Of a DNA stretch of 64,000 nt, positions 37,834-44,429 are shown piece by piece (the first letter of the stretch is position 1; every line of letters starts with the position of its first letter). The DNA comes from Candidatus Poseidoniaceae archaeon (GTDB taxonomy: Archaea > Thermoplasmatota > Poseidoniia > Poseidoniales > Poseidoniaceae), in NCBI GenBank assembly GCA_938084675.1, contig CALKGM010000003.1, positions 64,171 through 128,170 on the forward strand, written 5' to 3'. The position numbers and the translations under genes were made by a program. The notes beneath the pieces were generated by a model that was given only the letters and a program-made list of their open reading frames with translations, searched no databases and was not told the origin of the DNA.

Positions 37834-39612
37834 GTGCGAGTCGCAGTTTTGAAGGAAGACAATTGTCAACCGAAGAAGTGCAACGATGAGTGCCACGATT
37901 TTTGCCCCCCAGTTCGCAACGGACAAGAATGCATCATTCTTGACGATAAAACCGGAAAGCCTCACATTTCTGAAAGCCTCTGTATCGGCTGTGGTATCTG
38001 TATCAATAAGTGCCCACATGATGCGTTGATCATTGAAAATCTACCAAGTGAACTTGAATCGGATATGATTCACCGATTCTCAATGAATGGATTTCGCTTG
38101 TTTCGCCTCCCGACGCCCTCCAAAGAAAGCGTTGTTGGAATCCTCGGGCCAAACGGGATGGGTAAGTCTACTGCAATCAATGCACTTTCTGGAAGAACCA
38201 TTCCGAATTTAGGAGATTGGATGGATACTGAACCGGAATGGGATTCGGTGATAGAATCTCTACCTCGTGGCGAGTTACGAGATTTCTTCATTGCTGTTCA
38301 AGCAGGGAACATTCGGGTAGCAGTCAAACCACAGAACGTGGATCGTCTGCCAAAACGGGTCAAAGGAACCGTTCGTGAATTGTTGACGAAAGTCGATGAA
38401 CGCAATATTATGGTTGAAACCACCGAAGATTTGGGAATTGACCACCTCCTTGATCGAACCATCCAGCAACTCTCAGGTGGTGAATTGCAACGTATGGCAA
38501 TCTGTGCAACCATACTCAGAGATGTTGACGTGTATTTCTTTGATGAGCCTTCATCCTATCTTGACATTCACGAAAGAATGCGAATCGTTCGAATCATCCA
38601 AAAACTTGCTGAAGTAAAGCGTGTCATCGTTATTGAACACGATTTAGCGGTTCTGGACGTTCTTGCTGATTTGGTTCACATTGTGTATGGAAAAAAGGGT
38701 GCATTTGGAATCTTTACTCCTGCCCGCTCAACTCGCCAAGCCATCAATTCCTATCTTGATGGATTCCTGCCCGAGGAGAACGTACGAATTCGGGATAAGC
38801 CCATCAAATTCCTGCGTCATCGTGACCGAAGTGCAGAAATCGGAACTCCAGTCGTAAGCTGGGGTGGTCTTGAGAAAACATTAGGTGAGTTTAAACTTAC
38901 ATCCGGGGATGGCGCAGTCCATCGCTCAGAAGTAGTTGGCGTTGTTGGGCCAAACGGTACTGGCAAAACTACGATGATCAAACTTCTCGCTGGTGAGCAC
39001 GAATATGACGGAGGCTGGGTTACTGCAGATGCAAAAATCTCATACAAACCTCAGCATATTGATGTGGATATTGACGGCTCAGTTCAACTTTGGCTTGATA
39101 GTGAACTCGGTCCACGGTGGCGCAGTGGTGAATTCAATGTCAACGTGATTCGCGCCTTGGGAGTTGACCAATTACTGCCAAAGCGTGTCAAGAAACTATC
39201 TGGTGGGGAACGCCAAGCGGTTTCTATTGCCATTTGCTTGGGAAGAGATGCAGACCTCTATCTCCTGGATGAACCCTCAGCACATTTGGACGCAAACGCG
39301 AGGATGGAGGCTGCTAAAGCTATCCGTAGAACCATGGAAGCCAATGAAAAGTCAGCCTTTGTCATTGATCACGATGTCTATTTCATTGACATTGTATCCG
39401 ATTCTCTCCTTGTCTTTGAAGGCGAAGGAGGTGTCCAAGGAAAGGCAACTGGGCCCTTTGACCTGCGAGAAGGAATGAATCGCTTTTTGTCAAGTGTGAA
39501 TGTAACCTTCCGAAGAGATCACGATTCTCGTCGACCACGAATTAACAAGGGCGAGAGCAGAAAGGATCGTGAACAACGTAACGTTGGTGATTACTATTCT
39601 TACGATGCATGA
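37834..39612 (+). CDS. Ribosome recycling ATPase ABCE1/Rli1
   Basis: This 592-aa twin-ABC protein splits ribosomes after termination together with aRF1/aPelota. The N-terminal iron-sulphur domain has two cysteine sets, CQPKKCNDECHDFCPP and CIGCGICINKCP. ABC domain 1 has Walker A GPNGMGKST, signature QLSGGELQRM and Walker B YFFDEPSSYLD. Domain 2 has GPNGTGKTT, LSGGERQAVS and LYLLDEPSAHLD. All catalytic parts are intact. The start is GTG 37834 behind GGAGGGATGAG. It sits with L10e, a translation context. Confidence 0.96.
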   Translation: MRVAVLKEDNCQPKKCNDECHDFCPPVRNGQECIILDDKTGKPHISESLCIGCGICINKCPHDALIIENLPSELESDMIHRFSMNGFRLFRLPTPSKESVVGILGPNGMGKSTAINALSGRTIPNLGDWMDTEPEWDSVIESLPRGELRDFFIAVQAGNIRVAVKPQNVDRLPKRVKGTVRELLTKVDERNIMVETTEDLGIDHLLDRTIQQLSGGELQRMAICATILRDVDVYFFDEPSSYLDIHERMRIVRIIQKLAEVKRVIVIEHDLAVLDVLADLVHIVYGKKGAFGIFTPARSTRQAINSYLDGFLPEENVRIRDKPIKFLRHRDRSAEIGTPVVSWGGLEKTLGEFKLTSGDGAVHRSEVVGVVGPNGTGKTTMIKLLAGEHEYDGGWVTADAKISYKPQHIDVDIDGSVQLWLDSELGPRWRSGEFNVNVIRALGVDQLLPKRVKKLSGGERQAVSIAICLGRDADLYLLDEPSAHLDANARMEAAKAIRRTMEANEKSAFVIDHDVYFIDIVSDSLLVFEGEGGVQGKATGPFDLREGMNRFLSSVNVTFRRDHDSRRPRINKGESRKDREQRNVGDYYSYDA

Positions 39613-39654: not shown

Positions 39655-41397
39655 ATGCCAGTAGGTCAGCCGCCGCTTGGTGGCCCTCTCGGCCGCTCAA
39701 GAAATCGGCTTTCTGCAAGCGCTTTGACAACGTACCTTCGTTGTGAAAAGCAGTGGTTTTTGGCTTATCAAGTGGGTTTGCACGGCCCACTTCGCCCATC
39801 GCAAGTGGCGGGGATCGTGCTTGAGGATGCTCTATGTGAATTGTTTATGATGCACCCACCTCTCCTTCATTCAGAACAAGAACTCCTTGATTGGGCCGAA
39901 CCGCATATTGAAACTCAGGCTAAGAAAGCACATGATGATGGGCGAAAGGACTGGGATGATAGTTTGTGGACAGAAGACGGGGCGTCTTGGGATGATGTCG
40001 CCCTTGAAACATTCGTAGAACGGATACGCGGAGGCTTTCTACTGTTTTTAGAAGAAGTAAAGCGGTGTTTTGAGGAAAACGGTGGTCCTTACCTCGAAAC
40101 AAGAAGAAGTGGTGGTCAACCCTTTTCTGTACCTGAGCCATCTTGGGGAACAATTCCAGTTTTTCCTCGTTCAGAAAAAGTACCGGACATGGACTTGAGG
40201 CAATGGGACATTGAACAATCTCCAACATGGTCCAATCCAGGCGATCCAGTAACCTGGAACGAGGCCTGGGAATGTGCTCGGCCTTGGGTCAAAGACCCCC
40301 GTGTACACCAGCCTCAACGCCTCTACAGTCCCGATGGTTGGGCTTCTGGTGAATTGGACCTTGTGCTACGTTGGGACGGTACACTACGCATTGTTGATAT
40401 CAAATCGGGCTCTTCAGAATCTTCCTTTGCGGCATCTCTAGAGCATCAATTGCGCTTCTATTCTTGGCTCTGGTCCCAAACACATGACGGGGAGCGGGTT
40501 GACGGTATGGAGGGTTGGTACCTCTCTGGCCCCGAGCGGGTCCTGTATGCACCTCCAAACGAAGTAGAGATTGAATCTCTTACTGCATTCTACATGGAAC
40601 AACATCACGCCATGCAAAGCCTCGCCGAAGGCGTTGTAGCCTTCCCGACATCACCCAAATCCGCATGTTCGGGAGAGGCTGCTGGTTGCTTCTGGTGTCA
40701 GGTTTCTCGGAGTGAGTCGTCCGAATGGAATCTTCACGAATCGCTTCAATGGATTTCAGAACTCTCCTTGCCCGCTATCTCCTCACCCTATGCTCCCTTG
40801 TCCAGTATTCAGGGGAGGGTTTCAGTCAAAGGAACACTCTCAGGTGCATGGGGTCCGCTGCCAAATCATTTCTCTGAACCGGTTCTTGGTGCAGTTTTGG
40901 TGGGAGGGACTCAACATATTGCGCTTGAGGAAAGTGAACCGGGTTCATTTCCCACTCTTCACCAAATTGAACAAAAAAATGTTCTCGTTCACAATGCTCT
41001 TCCAGGGGTTTGGAGGGACCAACCGAGACTTTATGTCGATAAGGGCACTGAAATCATTCCAATTGAGGATGTAGAGGACGGCGATCCAATCGAGGTAACT
41101 CGTCTCGGTTTGTTGCGCACTCGAGCTAATGTCAAAGGATATGTTTTGTCCATCCGACGGCGGAGTGGTCGTAGAATTGATGGGAAACCATGGAGCATGG
41201 TGGCCTTTATGTTGTGGGACGGCACTCATGTGGCGGAAGTTGTCGCTTTTGGGAACAGTATCAATCAACGAATTTTAAATTTGAAACCGGGTTCCTTAGT
41301 GGCCATGACTGGTGTAGAAATCGGATGGCGCTCAGGTTTGCTTCAATTACGAATAGATTCCAGGAAAACTCGCATGGAACCAACGTTCTTGCGATGA
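39655..41397 (+). CDS. Cas4/Dna2/AddB-like PD-(D/E)XK nuclease with iron-sulphur cysteines and C-terminal OB fold (first paralogue)
   Basis: This 580-aa protein combines three parts. A RecB-family nuclease core shows GELDLV (E233, D235), VDIKSG (D248, K250) and HQLRFY (Q265, Y269, the QxxxY motif). A split cysteine set, C30 (YLRCEKQW) with C338, C345 and C348, matches the 4Fe-4S clasp of Cas4, AddB and Dna2. A C-terminal domain (NVKGYVLSIRRRSG to LLQLRIDSRK) looks like an OB fold. No helicase domain is present. It would be expected to cut or resect DNA ends, an inference from the family. SD GAGGGG lies before ATG 39655. The paralogue follows directly, and the pair lies downstream of ABCE1. 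Confidence 0.8.
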   Translation: MPVGQPPLGGPLGRSRNRLSASALTTYLRCEKQWFLAYQVGLHGPLRPSQVAGIVLEDALCELFMMHPPLLHSEQELLDWAEPHIETQAKKAHDDGRKDWDDSLWTEDGASWDDVALETFVERIRGGFLLFLEEVKRCFEENGGPYLETRRSGGQPFSVPEPSWGTIPVFPRSEKVPDMDLRQWDIEQSPTWSNPGDPVTWNEAWECARPWVKDPRVHQPQRLYSPDGWASGELDLVLRWDGTLRIVDIKSGSSESSFAASLEHQLRFYSWLWSQTHDGERVDGMEGWYLSGPERVLYAPPNEVEIESLTAFYMEQHHAMQSLAEGVVAFPTSPKSACSGEAAGCFWCQVSRSESSEWNLHESLQWISELSLPAISSPYAPLSSIQGRVSVKGTLSGAWGPLPNHFSEPVLGAVLVGGTQHIALEESEPGSFPTLHQIEQKNVLVHNALPGVWRDQPRLYVDKGTEIIPIEDVEDGDPIEVTRLGLLRTRANVKGYVLSIRRRSGRRIDGKPWSMVAFMLWDGTHVAEVVAFGNSINQRILNLKPGSLVAMTGVEIGWRSGLLQLRIDSRKTRMEPTFLR

Positions 41398-41452
41398 TGA
41401 GGCAGGGAGCCTTGCGTGAGAATTGAAAAGGGGTGGGCTCAGGTTTACCTCT

Positions 41453-43306
41453 ATGCCCGTCCAACTCGCAGATGCAACTACAGACACAGTTGGCCCCTAT
41501 TTGCGACTCTCGGCAAGTCAGGTTAACACCTACAAAGCCTGTCCACGGCTGTGGTATTATGAGAAAGTCTTGCGATTCCGCATGCCGCAAATTCCGGTTC
41601 TCTTTGTAGGCCGTGCAGTGGAAGAAGCCGTATGTAGGGTCTTGAGGGAATCTCCTGCACTTATCCACGCGTCTGCTCCTTCGGATGCTCACGACCCTTC
41701 CCCTCTTGACGAGGATGGTCTTCCAGACCGTAACACGGCCACTGGATGGCCTTCGCAGATGCTCATGCCGCTGGCCGAACGTGATGTGCCTGCCTCAAAA
41801 GAGGAATTACTTGAATGGGCTATGGCAAGATGTGAACGGCATCTCCCTGTTGCTCTCGAGAGGGTACGGCTCGAATGGGAAGGGGACGATAGGAAAGCAG
41901 GTGATTGGAAGAGCGTTGACACAAACCGATGTCTTGAGATGACCAAAGCAGGGCTTCGTTTCCATATCGATGAAGTTGAACGTTGCTTTACTGAAAAAGG
42001 AGGCCCTGGTTTGCAGTCATGGCGTGACGGAGTACGACCTCAATGGCCGGCACCAGACGGCTTTTCCTTTGACTCATTTTCCAGTGGGCACCCATTCGCT
42101 GGCTCCGGCGACCCAAGCTGGTTGGAGTCATGGGAGGTCTCTCGGCCATGGTTTGTTGATCCAGATGCTGCTAAATTTTCCATGAACGCCATACACCCCG
42201 ACCATTGGTTTCAGGGAGAATACGACCTGGTCTACAATTGGGATGGGGCAATCACCATCGTTGATTTGAAAGCCAGCCTTGGTGCGAACGACCGTTCTGG
42301 AGATTATGTTCGCCAACTCCGCATGTATGCAATGCTTTGGTACATCACCCACGAGCGCTCTGAAACCGTTGCATCTCTCCAAATTTGGTATTTGGGACAC
42401 CCCTCAATCAAGCACATAGATGCCCCCTCTATAGAGGAATTACAAACAATGGAGGGCGAACTACAACAAATGTGGGTGGACCTGAAGAAGGAAAAACCAA
42501 CGCGTGATGAATGCCCCCCAGAGCCTGCACCAATGCGAGGCTTTGCTCCTGGAGGTAAGCCAAAAGAGCCACCTCAGATGGTTCGATGTGATCGCTGTGA
42601 TTGGAGCGAAGTATGTCCTGCTGGTGGGGGTTCAGATGAAGCACCTCTACCCGAATCGCTTCAATTGCCCGGATTTTCTGGAATGACGCGCATTGACGAA
42701 ATAGGCTCGCTGAATCCACGTGCAAGTATCCGGGGTGAACTCTTCAGTGTGAGCATCGCTAGTGGTGGAAAGCCACCCAAAATAGTCATTCAACAGGGAC
42801 ACTATTTTGCAAATGTCAATATTATTTCTCACGATCATCGTGATGGCGGTAATACTTGGCCAGATGGCCTGAAAAAAGGAGATGAGGTTCTCGTAGAAGA
42901 TGCAATTTTCTCTACAAACTGGAAAGGAGAAATCGTTCTGAAAATTGACCCGTTTGCTCGTGTCGTATTGGATGATTCTCCACATGAAGATTCTCACGAC
43001 CTTATGGCTTATAACGCGAGAAGAAATGTAGGCGGTCGGATCGTTTACACCTATGAAAAGAGCGGAGTGAGTCGGAATGGAAAGACCTGGCGGCGGCGTG
43101 GTTTGATGTTGATGGACCATACTGGGGCCATGAAGGTTGAAGGTTGGTTCGACGATTGGAACAATCAATTTGGCATGGTTGAAGTTGGCGATATCGTGGT
43201 CATTGCTAACCTTGGTCTCGATGCTTGGGCTACTGAGGTTCGTGGAGATTATTCAAAGCAATCACGGCTTCAAATCATTGAGCGAGTTGACCGCTCAACC
43301 TCCTGA
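41453..43306 (+). CDS. Cas4/Dna2/AddB-like PD-(D/E)XK nuclease with iron-sulphur cysteines and C-terminal OB fold (second paralogue)
   Basis: This 617-aa paralogue of the preceding gene has the same order of parts. The opening SASQVNTYKACPRLWYYEK contains C30. The nuclease motifs are GEYDLV (E256, D258), VDLKAS (D271, K273) and RQLRMY (Q288, Y292). The remaining cluster cysteines are C379-x2-C382-x5-C388, the exact spacing seen in Cas4 and AddB. A C-terminal OB-like domain follows (GGRIVYTYEKSGVSRNGKTW to EVGDIVVIANLG). Upstream in-frame TTG 41423 adds unrelated residues, so ATG 41453 is used. The 3' end overlaps the convergent ThiS-like gene by 12 nt. Confidence 0.8.
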   Translation: MPVQLADATTDTVGPYLRLSASQVNTYKACPRLWYYEKVLRFRMPQIPVLFVGRAVEEAVCRVLRESPALIHASAPSDAHDPSPLDEDGLPDRNTATGWPSQMLMPLAERDVPASKEELLEWAMARCERHLPVALERVRLEWEGDDRKAGDWKSVDTNRCLEMTKAGLRFHIDEVERCFTEKGGPGLQSWRDGVRPQWPAPDGFSFDSFSSGHPFAGSGDPSWLESWEVSRPWFVDPDAAKFSMNAIHPDHWFQGEYDLVYNWDGAITIVDLKASLGANDRSGDYVRQLRMYAMLWYITHERSETVASLQIWYLGHPSIKHIDAPSIEELQTMEGELQQMWVDLKKEKPTRDECPPEPAPMRGFAPGGKPKEPPQMVRCDRCDWSEVCPAGGGSDEAPLPESLQLPGFSGMTRIDEIGSLNPRASIRGELFSVSIASGGKPPKIVIQQGHYFANVNIISHDHRDGGNTWPDGLKKGDEVLVEDAIFSTNWKGEIVLKIDPFARVVLDDSPHEDSHDLMAYNARRNVGGRIVYTYEKSGVSRNGKTWRRRGLMLMDHTGAMKVEGWFDDWNNQFGMVEVGDIVVIANLGLDAWATEVRGDYSKQSRLQIIERVDRSTS

Positions 43307-43495
43307 AGAGATGGTTGTGACAAGCAATTCAATATCTTGGTTGAGCCGTGTTGAGTGGGGCAGAACAGTTCCCTCATAACTCACAATGACCATGGAGGGG
43401 AGGATTTCTGAAGCAAGCAATGCTTCGCGAACTGTTGTTCCAGGTGCAAACGAACTTGAAATCTCGACGTCCCTTCCGTGAAACCGTACTTCCAT
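43295..43495 (-). CDS. ThiS/MoaD/SAMP-like beta-grasp sulphur carrier
   Basis: This 66-aa ubiquitin-fold protein begins MEVRFHGRDVEI, has the central GTTVREALL helix and the NQDIELLVTTISSGG end. The C-terminal Gly-Gly is the site activated by E1-like enzymes. Such proteins act as sulphur carriers for tRNA thiolation, thiamine or molybdopterin synthesis, or as protein modifiers (SAMPs). The frame stays open upstream to 43693, but that portion is antisense to tRNA-Ser. A TATA-like GTCATAAGC at 43517-43525 places transcription at about 43495, fitting a leaderless start; ATGs at 43510-43516 are alternatives. No E1 gene is nearby. Confidence 0.75.
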   Translation of the reverse strand: MEVRFHGRDVEISSSFAPGTTVREALLASEILPSMVIVSYEGTVLPHSTRLNQDIELLVTTISSGG

Positions 43496-43516
43496 GATGC
43501 GGCTAGGCATCATCAT

Positions 43517-43525
43517 GCTTATGAC
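43517..43525. promoter_or_regulatory. Shared TATA-like element between ThiS-like gene and tRNA-Ser
   Basis: GCTTATGAC on the plus strand (GTCATAAGC on the minus) lies about 30 nt before the tRNA-Ser 5' end and about 26 nt before ATG 43495 of the divergent ThiS-like gene. It could serve one or both directions. Confidence 0.4.
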
Positions 43526-43550
43526 GGTCGCGCTAAAGCCCTGTGATAGA

Positions 43551-43633
43551 GCCGAGGTCGCATAGCCCGGTATTGCGGTGGATTCGAAATCCACTGTCCC
43601 TTGGACGCGGGGGTTCAAATCCCTCTCTCGGCG
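43551..43633 (+). tRNA. tRNA-Ser (anticodon CGA)
   Basis: An 83-nt class II tRNA folds cleanly. The acceptor stem GCCGAGG pairs with TCTCGGC (one G-U) and the discriminator is G73, as expected for serine. The anticodon stem GTGGA/TCCAC encloses the loop TTCGAAA, giving anticodon CGA for UCG codons. The long variable arm (TGTCC, CTT, GGACG) is characteristic of tRNA-Ser. The T stem GGGGG/CCCTC closes a TTCAAAT loop. There is no intron and CCA is not encoded. It lies between the convergent PAC2 gene and the divergent ThiS-like gene. Confidence 0.95.
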
Positions 43634-43673
43634 CTCTTCATCTGAATGGTTGACTTTTTTTGAGGAGGCCCAA

Positions 43674-44429
43674 TCACATATAGAACGCATCATGAGACGC
43701 TGACATTTCTGCTACTAAATCCATTTTCTTCTTTGGTGCAATCTCTTCTAAACGACGCTTAAGCCATTCGTTTCCTTCCTGCGGAAGCTTCAATCCAAGA
43801 GTAAACCATCGGTCAAGATGTTCAATCATTCGCTGAGATGCGAGGATGTCTCCGCTTGCTCCTACTGTTGTGGTAATGGCGCAACTCGTGTTTAATCCGA
43901 ATAACGGCCCCATTGAGGCAATCAATGCAGCGACTCCAATTGCTCCTGCTTTCGGTTCATCTCTGCGGACATCAACCCCCATTGATTCCATTTCTATCCG
44001 ATGGCTGGCAGAACTTGCGATCATGAATGTATCTTTACGTTCGGGTGAGTCCGCCATGCCAGCAAGAACAATCACATTACTGACGCCTTGTTCTTGGAAA
44101 AACAGCATTAATTCTTCCGCCATCTGACTTTGTGCACTCGAATCATTGGGTTGTGATGGGCCAGTGAGAGTTAGCAGACGTGTACCGCTTTGAGTTTGTA
44201 CCCGTGAAAGTGTTAGGTGAGGCGGGGAGAGCAAACCATCTTCGTCTAATTTAGCAAGAGGGGGGAGTCCTGACGGATGGAGTCGAGCAATGACGTCGGT
44301 TGGGTTCAGTTTCCACAAACTCTCAATTGCAACCTTGCCAACGTTGCCAACTCCTGGGAAGGCAAGCAACATCACTTCATCAGTGCCGATTGAAGACGAG
44401 CCGTTTCTCCATTCAATTCTAAGGGTCAT
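43674..44429 (-). CDS. PAC2-family (proteasome assembly chaperone-like) protein
   Basis: This 251-aa protein of the PAC2/COG2047 family is related to eukaryotic proteasome assembly chaperone 2. Characteristic segments are LLAFPGVGNVGKVAIESL at the N-terminus, NVIVLAGMAD in the middle, and AIGVAALIASMGPLFGLNTS followed by GASGDILASQRMIEHL. It is the last gene of the L44e-S27e-aIF2a-Nop10 cluster, where PAC2 proteins are often found in archaea. It may have its own promoter: CATTATAGC at 44454-44462 is well placed for a leaderless start at 44429. The archaeal function is not established. Confidence 0.88.
   Translation of the reverse strand: MTLRIEWRNGSSSIGTDEVMLLAFPGVGNVGKVAIESLWKLNPTDVIARLHPSGLPPLAKLDEDGLLSPPHLTLSRVQTQSGTRLLTLTGPSQPNDSSAQSQMAEELMLFFQEQGVSNVIVLAGMADSPERKDTFMIASSASHRIEMESMGVDVRRDEPKAGAIGVAALIASMGPLFGLNTSCAITTTVGASGDILASQRMIEHLDRWFTLGLKLPQEGNEWLKRRLEEIAPKKKMDLVAEMSASHDAFYM

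Follow-up and report, generated by a model that had tools for sequence, protein, structure and literature searches.

Paired RecB-family nucleases with tandem RPA-like OB folds in Poseidoniales: candidates for helicase-free processing of DNA ends

How would two adjacent nucleases of the RecB-like superfamily act on DNA when no helicase is encoded beside them? The question is raised by a stretch of 64,000 nucleotides from a Candidatus Poseidoniaceae archaeon (GenBank assembly GCA_938084675.1, contig CALKGM010000003.1, positions 64,171 to 128,170 of the forward strand), hereafter the window, which belongs to contig 3 of a Poseidonia-like host genome (G000; order Poseidoniales, Marine Group II). 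As the initial annotation had it, two genes lie there next to each other on the same strand: gene A (39655-41397, 580 amino acids (aa)), coding for a PD-(D/E)XK nuclease that ends in two OB folds, and gene B (41453-43306, 617 aa), coding for an iron-staple PD-(D/E)XK nuclease of the same layout. Both were delimited from open reading frames (ORFs), Pfam matches and AlphaFold2 (AF2) models, and they and all their features given below are on the + strand. The answer that we put forward, and which we hold to be about evenly balanced between right and wrong, is that A and B are helicase-free, ATP-independent iron-staple nucleases for single-stranded DNA (ssDNA), comparable to EXO5, with a fused tail of tandem RPA-type OB folds.

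The nuclease core that had been attributed to both proteins is borne out by a PF12705 domain scoring above cut-off in each (E 2e-15 for A and 1e-14 for B) and by homology over their whole length (24% identity, E 8e-39); judged from these comparisons, A and B are ancient paralogues. In a tree, A and B fall on separate sides, each of which includes Poseidoniaceae (assigned by named loci) and the other family of the order (taken here to be Thalassarchaeaceae), so that the gene was duplicated before these families diverged. The PD-(D/E)XK RecB-like superfamily is defined by a PDDEXK fold with GExD, (D/E)xK and QxxxY motifs, all of which both proteins have. The catalytic core of A comprises GELD (residues 232-235), D248-x-K250 and Q265-x3-Y269 (40348-40461), and that of B GEYD (255-258), D271-x-K273 and Q288-x3-Y292 (42215-42328); column gaps aside, these GExD, DxK and QxxxY residues are invariant in 83/83 A and 109/109 B sequences. 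Thus the claim that all nuclease motifs are kept holds for these three, but not for motif I, which is G-x3-E in every A and B sequence, with a Glu that never varies (again column gaps aside), whereas G-x3-H would be expected from Cas4 and AddB.

A C-terminal OB-like domain had also been proposed, and it proved to be two per protein instead of one: the AF2 models (A, pLDDT 87.5 and pTM 0.86; B, pLDDT 91.8 and pTM 0.87) each show two OB folds after the nuclease. OB fold 1 of A spans residues ∼389-470 (40819-41064; AF2 strands and Foldseek), and OB fold 2 residues ∼490-577 (41122-41385; AF2, Foldseek and identity comparison), the latter being the most conserved part of A. For B, OB fold 1 covers residues ∼413-510 (42689-42982; AF2, with a weak match to the OB protein Ta0387, 2k75), and OB fold 2 residues ∼515-610 (42995-43282), which are of archaeal RPA or single-stranded DNA-binding protein (SSB) type. 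The last assignment comes from an hmmsearch of the PDB, where OB fold 2 of B matched Replication factor A of Pyrococcus (8aa9, E 2.9e-7), and from the profile of B, which finds RPA-like ORFs of other Thermoplasmatota (E 6e-10 to 1e-6); B differs from archaeal RPA/SSB in having this fold fused to a nuclease. When the models of A and B were compared with the PDB using Foldseek, the top matches were the tandem OB folds of RPA70, Teb1, POT1 and HIN-200 proteins, and a comparison with a viral library matched RecB-family exonucleases. A relationship to tandem RPA/SSB OB folds was therefore found by sequence for OB fold 2 of B and by structure for A and for OB fold 1 of B, and together the profiles and predicted models support RPA-like tails on both proteins.

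The four-cysteine clasp ascribed to both proteins withstood scrutiny in B only. An N-terminal Cys followed by CxxCx5C is, in AddB and Cas4, the order of the ‘iron staple’ (PMC7430649, PMC3466216). Cys30 of B (41540-41542) was found in 107/107 relatives where the column is present, and C379-x2-C382-x5-C388 (42587-42616), the canonical remainder, in 109/109. A has Cys30 as well (39742-39744), conserved in 81/83 relatives and replaced by Gly in genus g9, but its C-terminal cysteines are arranged differently in the window: C338-x6-C345-x2-C348 (40666-40698), the last C of CxxCx5C being absent and an upstream C used instead. This move of the third staple position (Cx6CxxC) characterizes A of Poseidoniaceae, whereas A of several Thalassarchaeaceae genera has the canonical pattern, and in genus g9 A retains the active site but none of the four cysteines. 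The full set, with CxxCx5C lying beyond the nuclease core as in the iron-staple nucleases (AddB, Cas4, DNA2 and EXO5), was thus found in B of all relatives and in A of some Thalassarchaeaceae members alone; as far as the alignments tell, the staple is canonical in B and drifting in A, and an Fe-S cluster in either protein is putative.

Among known enzymes, EXO5 would by analogy be functionally closest to A and B: a [4Fe-4S] nuclease made of one domain, it acts on ssDNA with an open end, and RPA dictates the direction in which it works (PMC8710748). Like B, EXO5 is a nuclease without a helicase domain; it has N- and C-terminal cysteines, which in its case bind [4Fe-4S], and it functions in partnership with RPA (PMC8710748). 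EXO5 has, however, one nuclease domain without OB folds, whereas A and B form an archaeal paralogous pair with two fused RPA-type OB folds and a motif I Glu, and a Pfam scan up to E 1 revealed no Exo5 family in A or B. Cas4 and solo-Cas4 proteins, such as Sso0001, a member of the Cas4 family whose gene lies outside CRISPR loci and which degrades ssDNA as a 5'-3' exonuclease (PMC3466216), have in common with A and B the N-terminal Cys plus CxxCx5C order, the RecB motifs and the existence of CRISPR-independent members. The profile of B matched the Cas4 structure 4r5q at residues 15-65 (E 0.004), and the TIGR00372 (Cas4) scores, 28.7 bits for B and 12.1 bits for A, did not reach the family cut-off of 65 bits. 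Unlike Cas4, A and B are about three times longer, their motifs I and II stand ∼200 residues apart, they have fused tandem OB folds, and no Cas1 was found in their order. DNA2/Bad proteins combine an iron-staple nuclease and, in DNA2, a beta-barrel domain in one chain (PMC8710748), but A and B lack the C-terminal superfamily 1 helicase domain of DNA2, according to both Pfam and the models, and have two RPA-type OB folds instead. The view that known relatives act either alongside a helicase or in CRISPR adaptation thus overlooked EXO5 and Sso0001 (PMC8710748, PMC3466216). Stand-alone iron-staple nucleases are already known from these two; what is new, as far as we searched, is a nuclease fused to tandem RPA-type OB folds, its occurrence as a pair of ancient paralogues and the seeming division of constraint between them that is described below.

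The mechanism that we propose would begin with the capture of ssDNA by the OB tail. The DNA end would then be passed to the staple-bound nuclease core, which would trim it, with a putative exonuclease polarity, in the course of chromosome maintenance, be it in the processing of ends, the removal of flaps or the restart of forks. B would be the catalytic specialist: its staple is invariant and, in the presence of A, its tail is less well conserved than its nuclease. A would be the DNA-binding specialist, its nuclease being less well conserved than its OB folds, its staple drifting and its active site intact. Where both exist, they would probably belong to the same pathway and might associate loosely, with a presumed direction of handover between A and B; where A is absent, B would do the whole job. 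Helicase-driven resection of breaks would be left to a separate AddAB-like complex.

Such a complex bears directly on the question of the missing helicase. No helicase was found in the neighbourhood of A and B in the window, as had been claimed, but contig 11 of the same genome holds an unlinked AddB-AddA-like operon (L163:3917-12555), with products of about 1.2 and 1.65 thousand aa; such operons recur in nearly all sampled Poseidoniales (L164, L170 and others) but in no further genome sampled from the phylum. The AddA-like protein (1.6-1.7 thousand aa) combines a UvrD helicase with a PDDEXK domain and matches TIGR02785 with E 1e-41, under the cut-off of that model; the AddB-like protein (1.2 thousand aa), whose gene precedes it, has a C-terminal PDDEXK domain, weak similarity to AddB and four conserved cysteines in its family. 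Of 64 sampled Poseidoniales, 62 have this AddB-like family, which was found nowhere else among the genomes sampled from the phylum, and a whole-genome search detected a UvrD-type helicase in 16/16 Poseidoniales and in 0/15 genomes of a third family, probably Marine Group III. AddAB is known as a bacterial machine; going by these similarities, the host genome encodes a helicase-nuclease of AddAB-like type away from A and B, and a machine of AddAB type is fixed in an archaeal order. A search of the literature on AddAB or RecB in Marine Group II, with papers under subscription outside its reach, gave nothing relevant.

One might then ask whether A and B are accessory nucleases or loaders acting in trans for this AddAB-like enzyme, or for another helicase such as Hel308, much as EXO5 functions with the BLM helicase (PMC8710748). 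They have the same phylogenetic range as the AddB-like family, and the third family, which has no UvrD-type helicase, has no B either. This co-distribution may, however, reflect one ancestral gain of each and so count as a single event; the genes are unlinked, and AddA and AddB have PDDEXK domains of their own, with four cysteines of its own in AddB. We consider such a role improbable. An origin of A and B as copies of the nuclease domain of the host AddB or AddA was tried and rejected: A and B share with the AddB domain the iron-staple nuclease and the order of its cysteines, in an order that also encodes the AddAB-like pair, but they lack the inactive superfamily 1 helicase-like domains that precede the nuclease in AddB, the AF2 models showing nuclease and OB folds only, and hhalign similarity was weak (probability 46 with AddB and 2 with AddA). 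As to other repair genes, NurA was found in 0/16 Poseidoniales. Matches to DUF87 in a search for HerA were, in Poseidoniaceae, frames of 500-900 aa of uncertain identity, and we make no claim about HerA; those to PF13476 in a search for Rad50/Mre11 occurred everywhere, mostly in long frames of SMC/Rad50 size, and were uninformative. One genome of the third family (G001 contig 13; L161, L198) has NurA adjoining a HerA-type ATPase, unlike the sampled Poseidoniales.

A single-sequence search with B found A or B in 203/244 genomes of the class, and nearly every sampled Poseidoniales genome has one or two of them. A profile search for relatives, which covered the sampled genomes of the phylum, found neither A nor B in the third family, and candidate relatives outside Poseidoniales were rejected: their matches were weak, and those inspected, in 12 genomes, fell without exception in the OB region, mostly of RPA-sized ORFs. 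Within the reach of this search, the two families are confined to Poseidoniales. A and B are adjacent in all genera of Poseidoniaceae examined except g9, and also in Thalassarchaeaceae genera g15, g17, g19 and g22; among 80 named Poseidoniaceae loci, 75 have the pair adjacent, three more have it with a split A frame, and the other two are cut at contig ends. The pair is tightly linked in the first family and in these four genera of the second; other genera have A or B alone. B occurs without A in seven Thalassarchaeaceae genera (g12, g13, g14, g16, g18, g20 and g21), whereas genus g9 has A without B. There (L183:4559-7242, L184:5778-8455), A is directly followed by a DEDDh exonuclease gene (DnaQ-type, PF00929), homologues of which occur elsewhere in the other genomes, and the presence of this gene beside a cysteine-less A in a genus without B is consistent with an exonuclease role. 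The seven B-only genera and the A-only genus contradict the heterodimer of the initial annotation in so far as it was taken as obligate. Two further observations concern the layout of the pair: genus g10 (G107; L181:6637-7212) has the two genes separated by a DsbB-like one, and A is split into two frames beside an intact B in three Poseidoniaceae metagenome-assembled genomes (L104:2173-3950, L140:2218-3981 and L150:2222-3981), which may be a frameshift through assembly or decay.

The two proteins differ in where they are constrained. Mean pairwise identity of A in 23 genomes was 0.41 for the nuclease, 0.46 for OB fold 1 and 0.52 for OB fold 2; the corresponding values of B in the same genomes were 0.44, 0.25 and 0.27, and those in 13 B-only genomes 0.57, 0.54 and 0.66. 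When the comparison was matched by taking pairs with nuclease identity of 0.45-0.55, OB folds 1 and 2 of B had identities of 0.51 and 0.63 without A versus 0.30 and 0.40 in Poseidoniaceae with A, those of A in Poseidoniaceae being 0.57 and 0.62. In addition, the OB folds of B-only proteins lie closer to those of A. The tail of B is thus constrained in genomes that lack A and relaxed in those that have it, clearly so in Poseidoniaceae, whereas the tail of A is always constrained. This contrast suggests that A, where present, carries the DNA-binding duty. We would tentatively, and with more doubt than belief, see here a split duplicate, with A mainly an RPA-like platform and B mainly an iron-staple cutter, jointly a helicase-free DNA-end nuclease; without A, B, whose OB folds are then strongly constrained, would do both. 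The same pattern lends indirect support to a partnership looser than the one first proposed. A stable heterodimer wherever both genes exist, with the OB folds of A as an RPA-like platform and the nuclease of B cutting the bound end, would also agree with the opposite constraint on the OB folds of A and B, with its reversal in B without A and with the adjacency in the named loci. But the genera with one gene only show that neither subunit needs the other, and both active sites are kept, which would be unneeded in a platform subunit; we are inclined to doubt it.

The gene upstream of A, separated by 42 nucleotides, codes for an ABCE1/RLI-type ABC ATPase (37834-39612, + strand) and is probably co-transcribed with A, in Poseidoniaceae and in the A-bearing genomes of the second family; it stands outside the mechanism of A and B. 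Other neighbours are also translation genes (eIF2-alpha, Nop10-like and aL44-like). MutS/MutL are nearby in Poseidoniaceae only and neither RPA nor Hel308 was seen in the neighbourhoods examined, so that a linkage with RPA, Hel308 or MutSL, for which a survey had been suggested, is not general. The presence of RLI and several ribosome and translation genes, together with a sub-threshold match of A to the PF01336 tRNA_anti-codon OB family (E 0.029), could point to RNA- or tRNA-processing nucleases with OB folds of anticodon-binding type. Against this, PF01336 includes other nucleic-acid-binding OB folds, the OB profile of B best matches RPA/SSB, and no iron-staple enzyme of the RecB family with RNA as its substrate is known to us; such a function appears very unlikely. 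Hardly more credible is an antiviral or mobile-element nuclease, in the manner of a solo-Cas4-like defence gene, although A and B have weak PADLOC matches to DruK and Cas4 profiles and solo-Cas4 genes without an assigned role are common in archaea (PMC5704561). The pair is inherited vertically in a fixed housekeeping neighbourhood, and a defence island was rejected on the latter ground. A CRISPR link, already denied by the initial annotation, was rejected on finding Cas1 in 0/16 Poseidoniales with working controls, and a viral origin on finding no relatives in a profile-derived scan of viral contigs and no phage match by tblastn.

Several points weigh against our reading of A and B as EXO5-like ssDNA nucleases with shared labour. 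The motif I Glu in place of the expected His could alter metal use, and the translation-gene setting may leave room for an RNA substrate. The constraint contrast probably rests on one A-loss clade, its pairs lack independence, and in the second family relaxation of the OB folds of B is not clear from the few paired comparisons that could be used. If this reading is right, the order-specific nuclease/RPA-fusion pair and the AddAB-like complex would be a candidate end-processing toolkit for Poseidoniales, abundant archaea of the surface ocean in which, to our knowledge, end processing is largely unstudied. That some genera have A and others do not would likewise offer a natural experiment on how work is shared between a nuclease and an ssDNA-binding module.

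Some minor observations concern gene boundaries. B is 92-99% identical to Poseidoniaceae records, Ca. Poseidonia alphae among them. Its start is more likely ATG 41453 than TTG 41423, since the MPV start is conserved. Position 2 of the Met-Pro-(Val) N-terminus (window 39655-39663 and 41453-41461) is Pro in all of 83 A and 107 B sequences, despite the overall divergence of A from B. Downstream of B, a tRNA-Ser(CGA) (43551-43634, + strand) overlaps a reading frame of the - strand (43295-43693), a small MoaD/ThiS-like ORF, the longer start of which is probably wrong because of this overlap.

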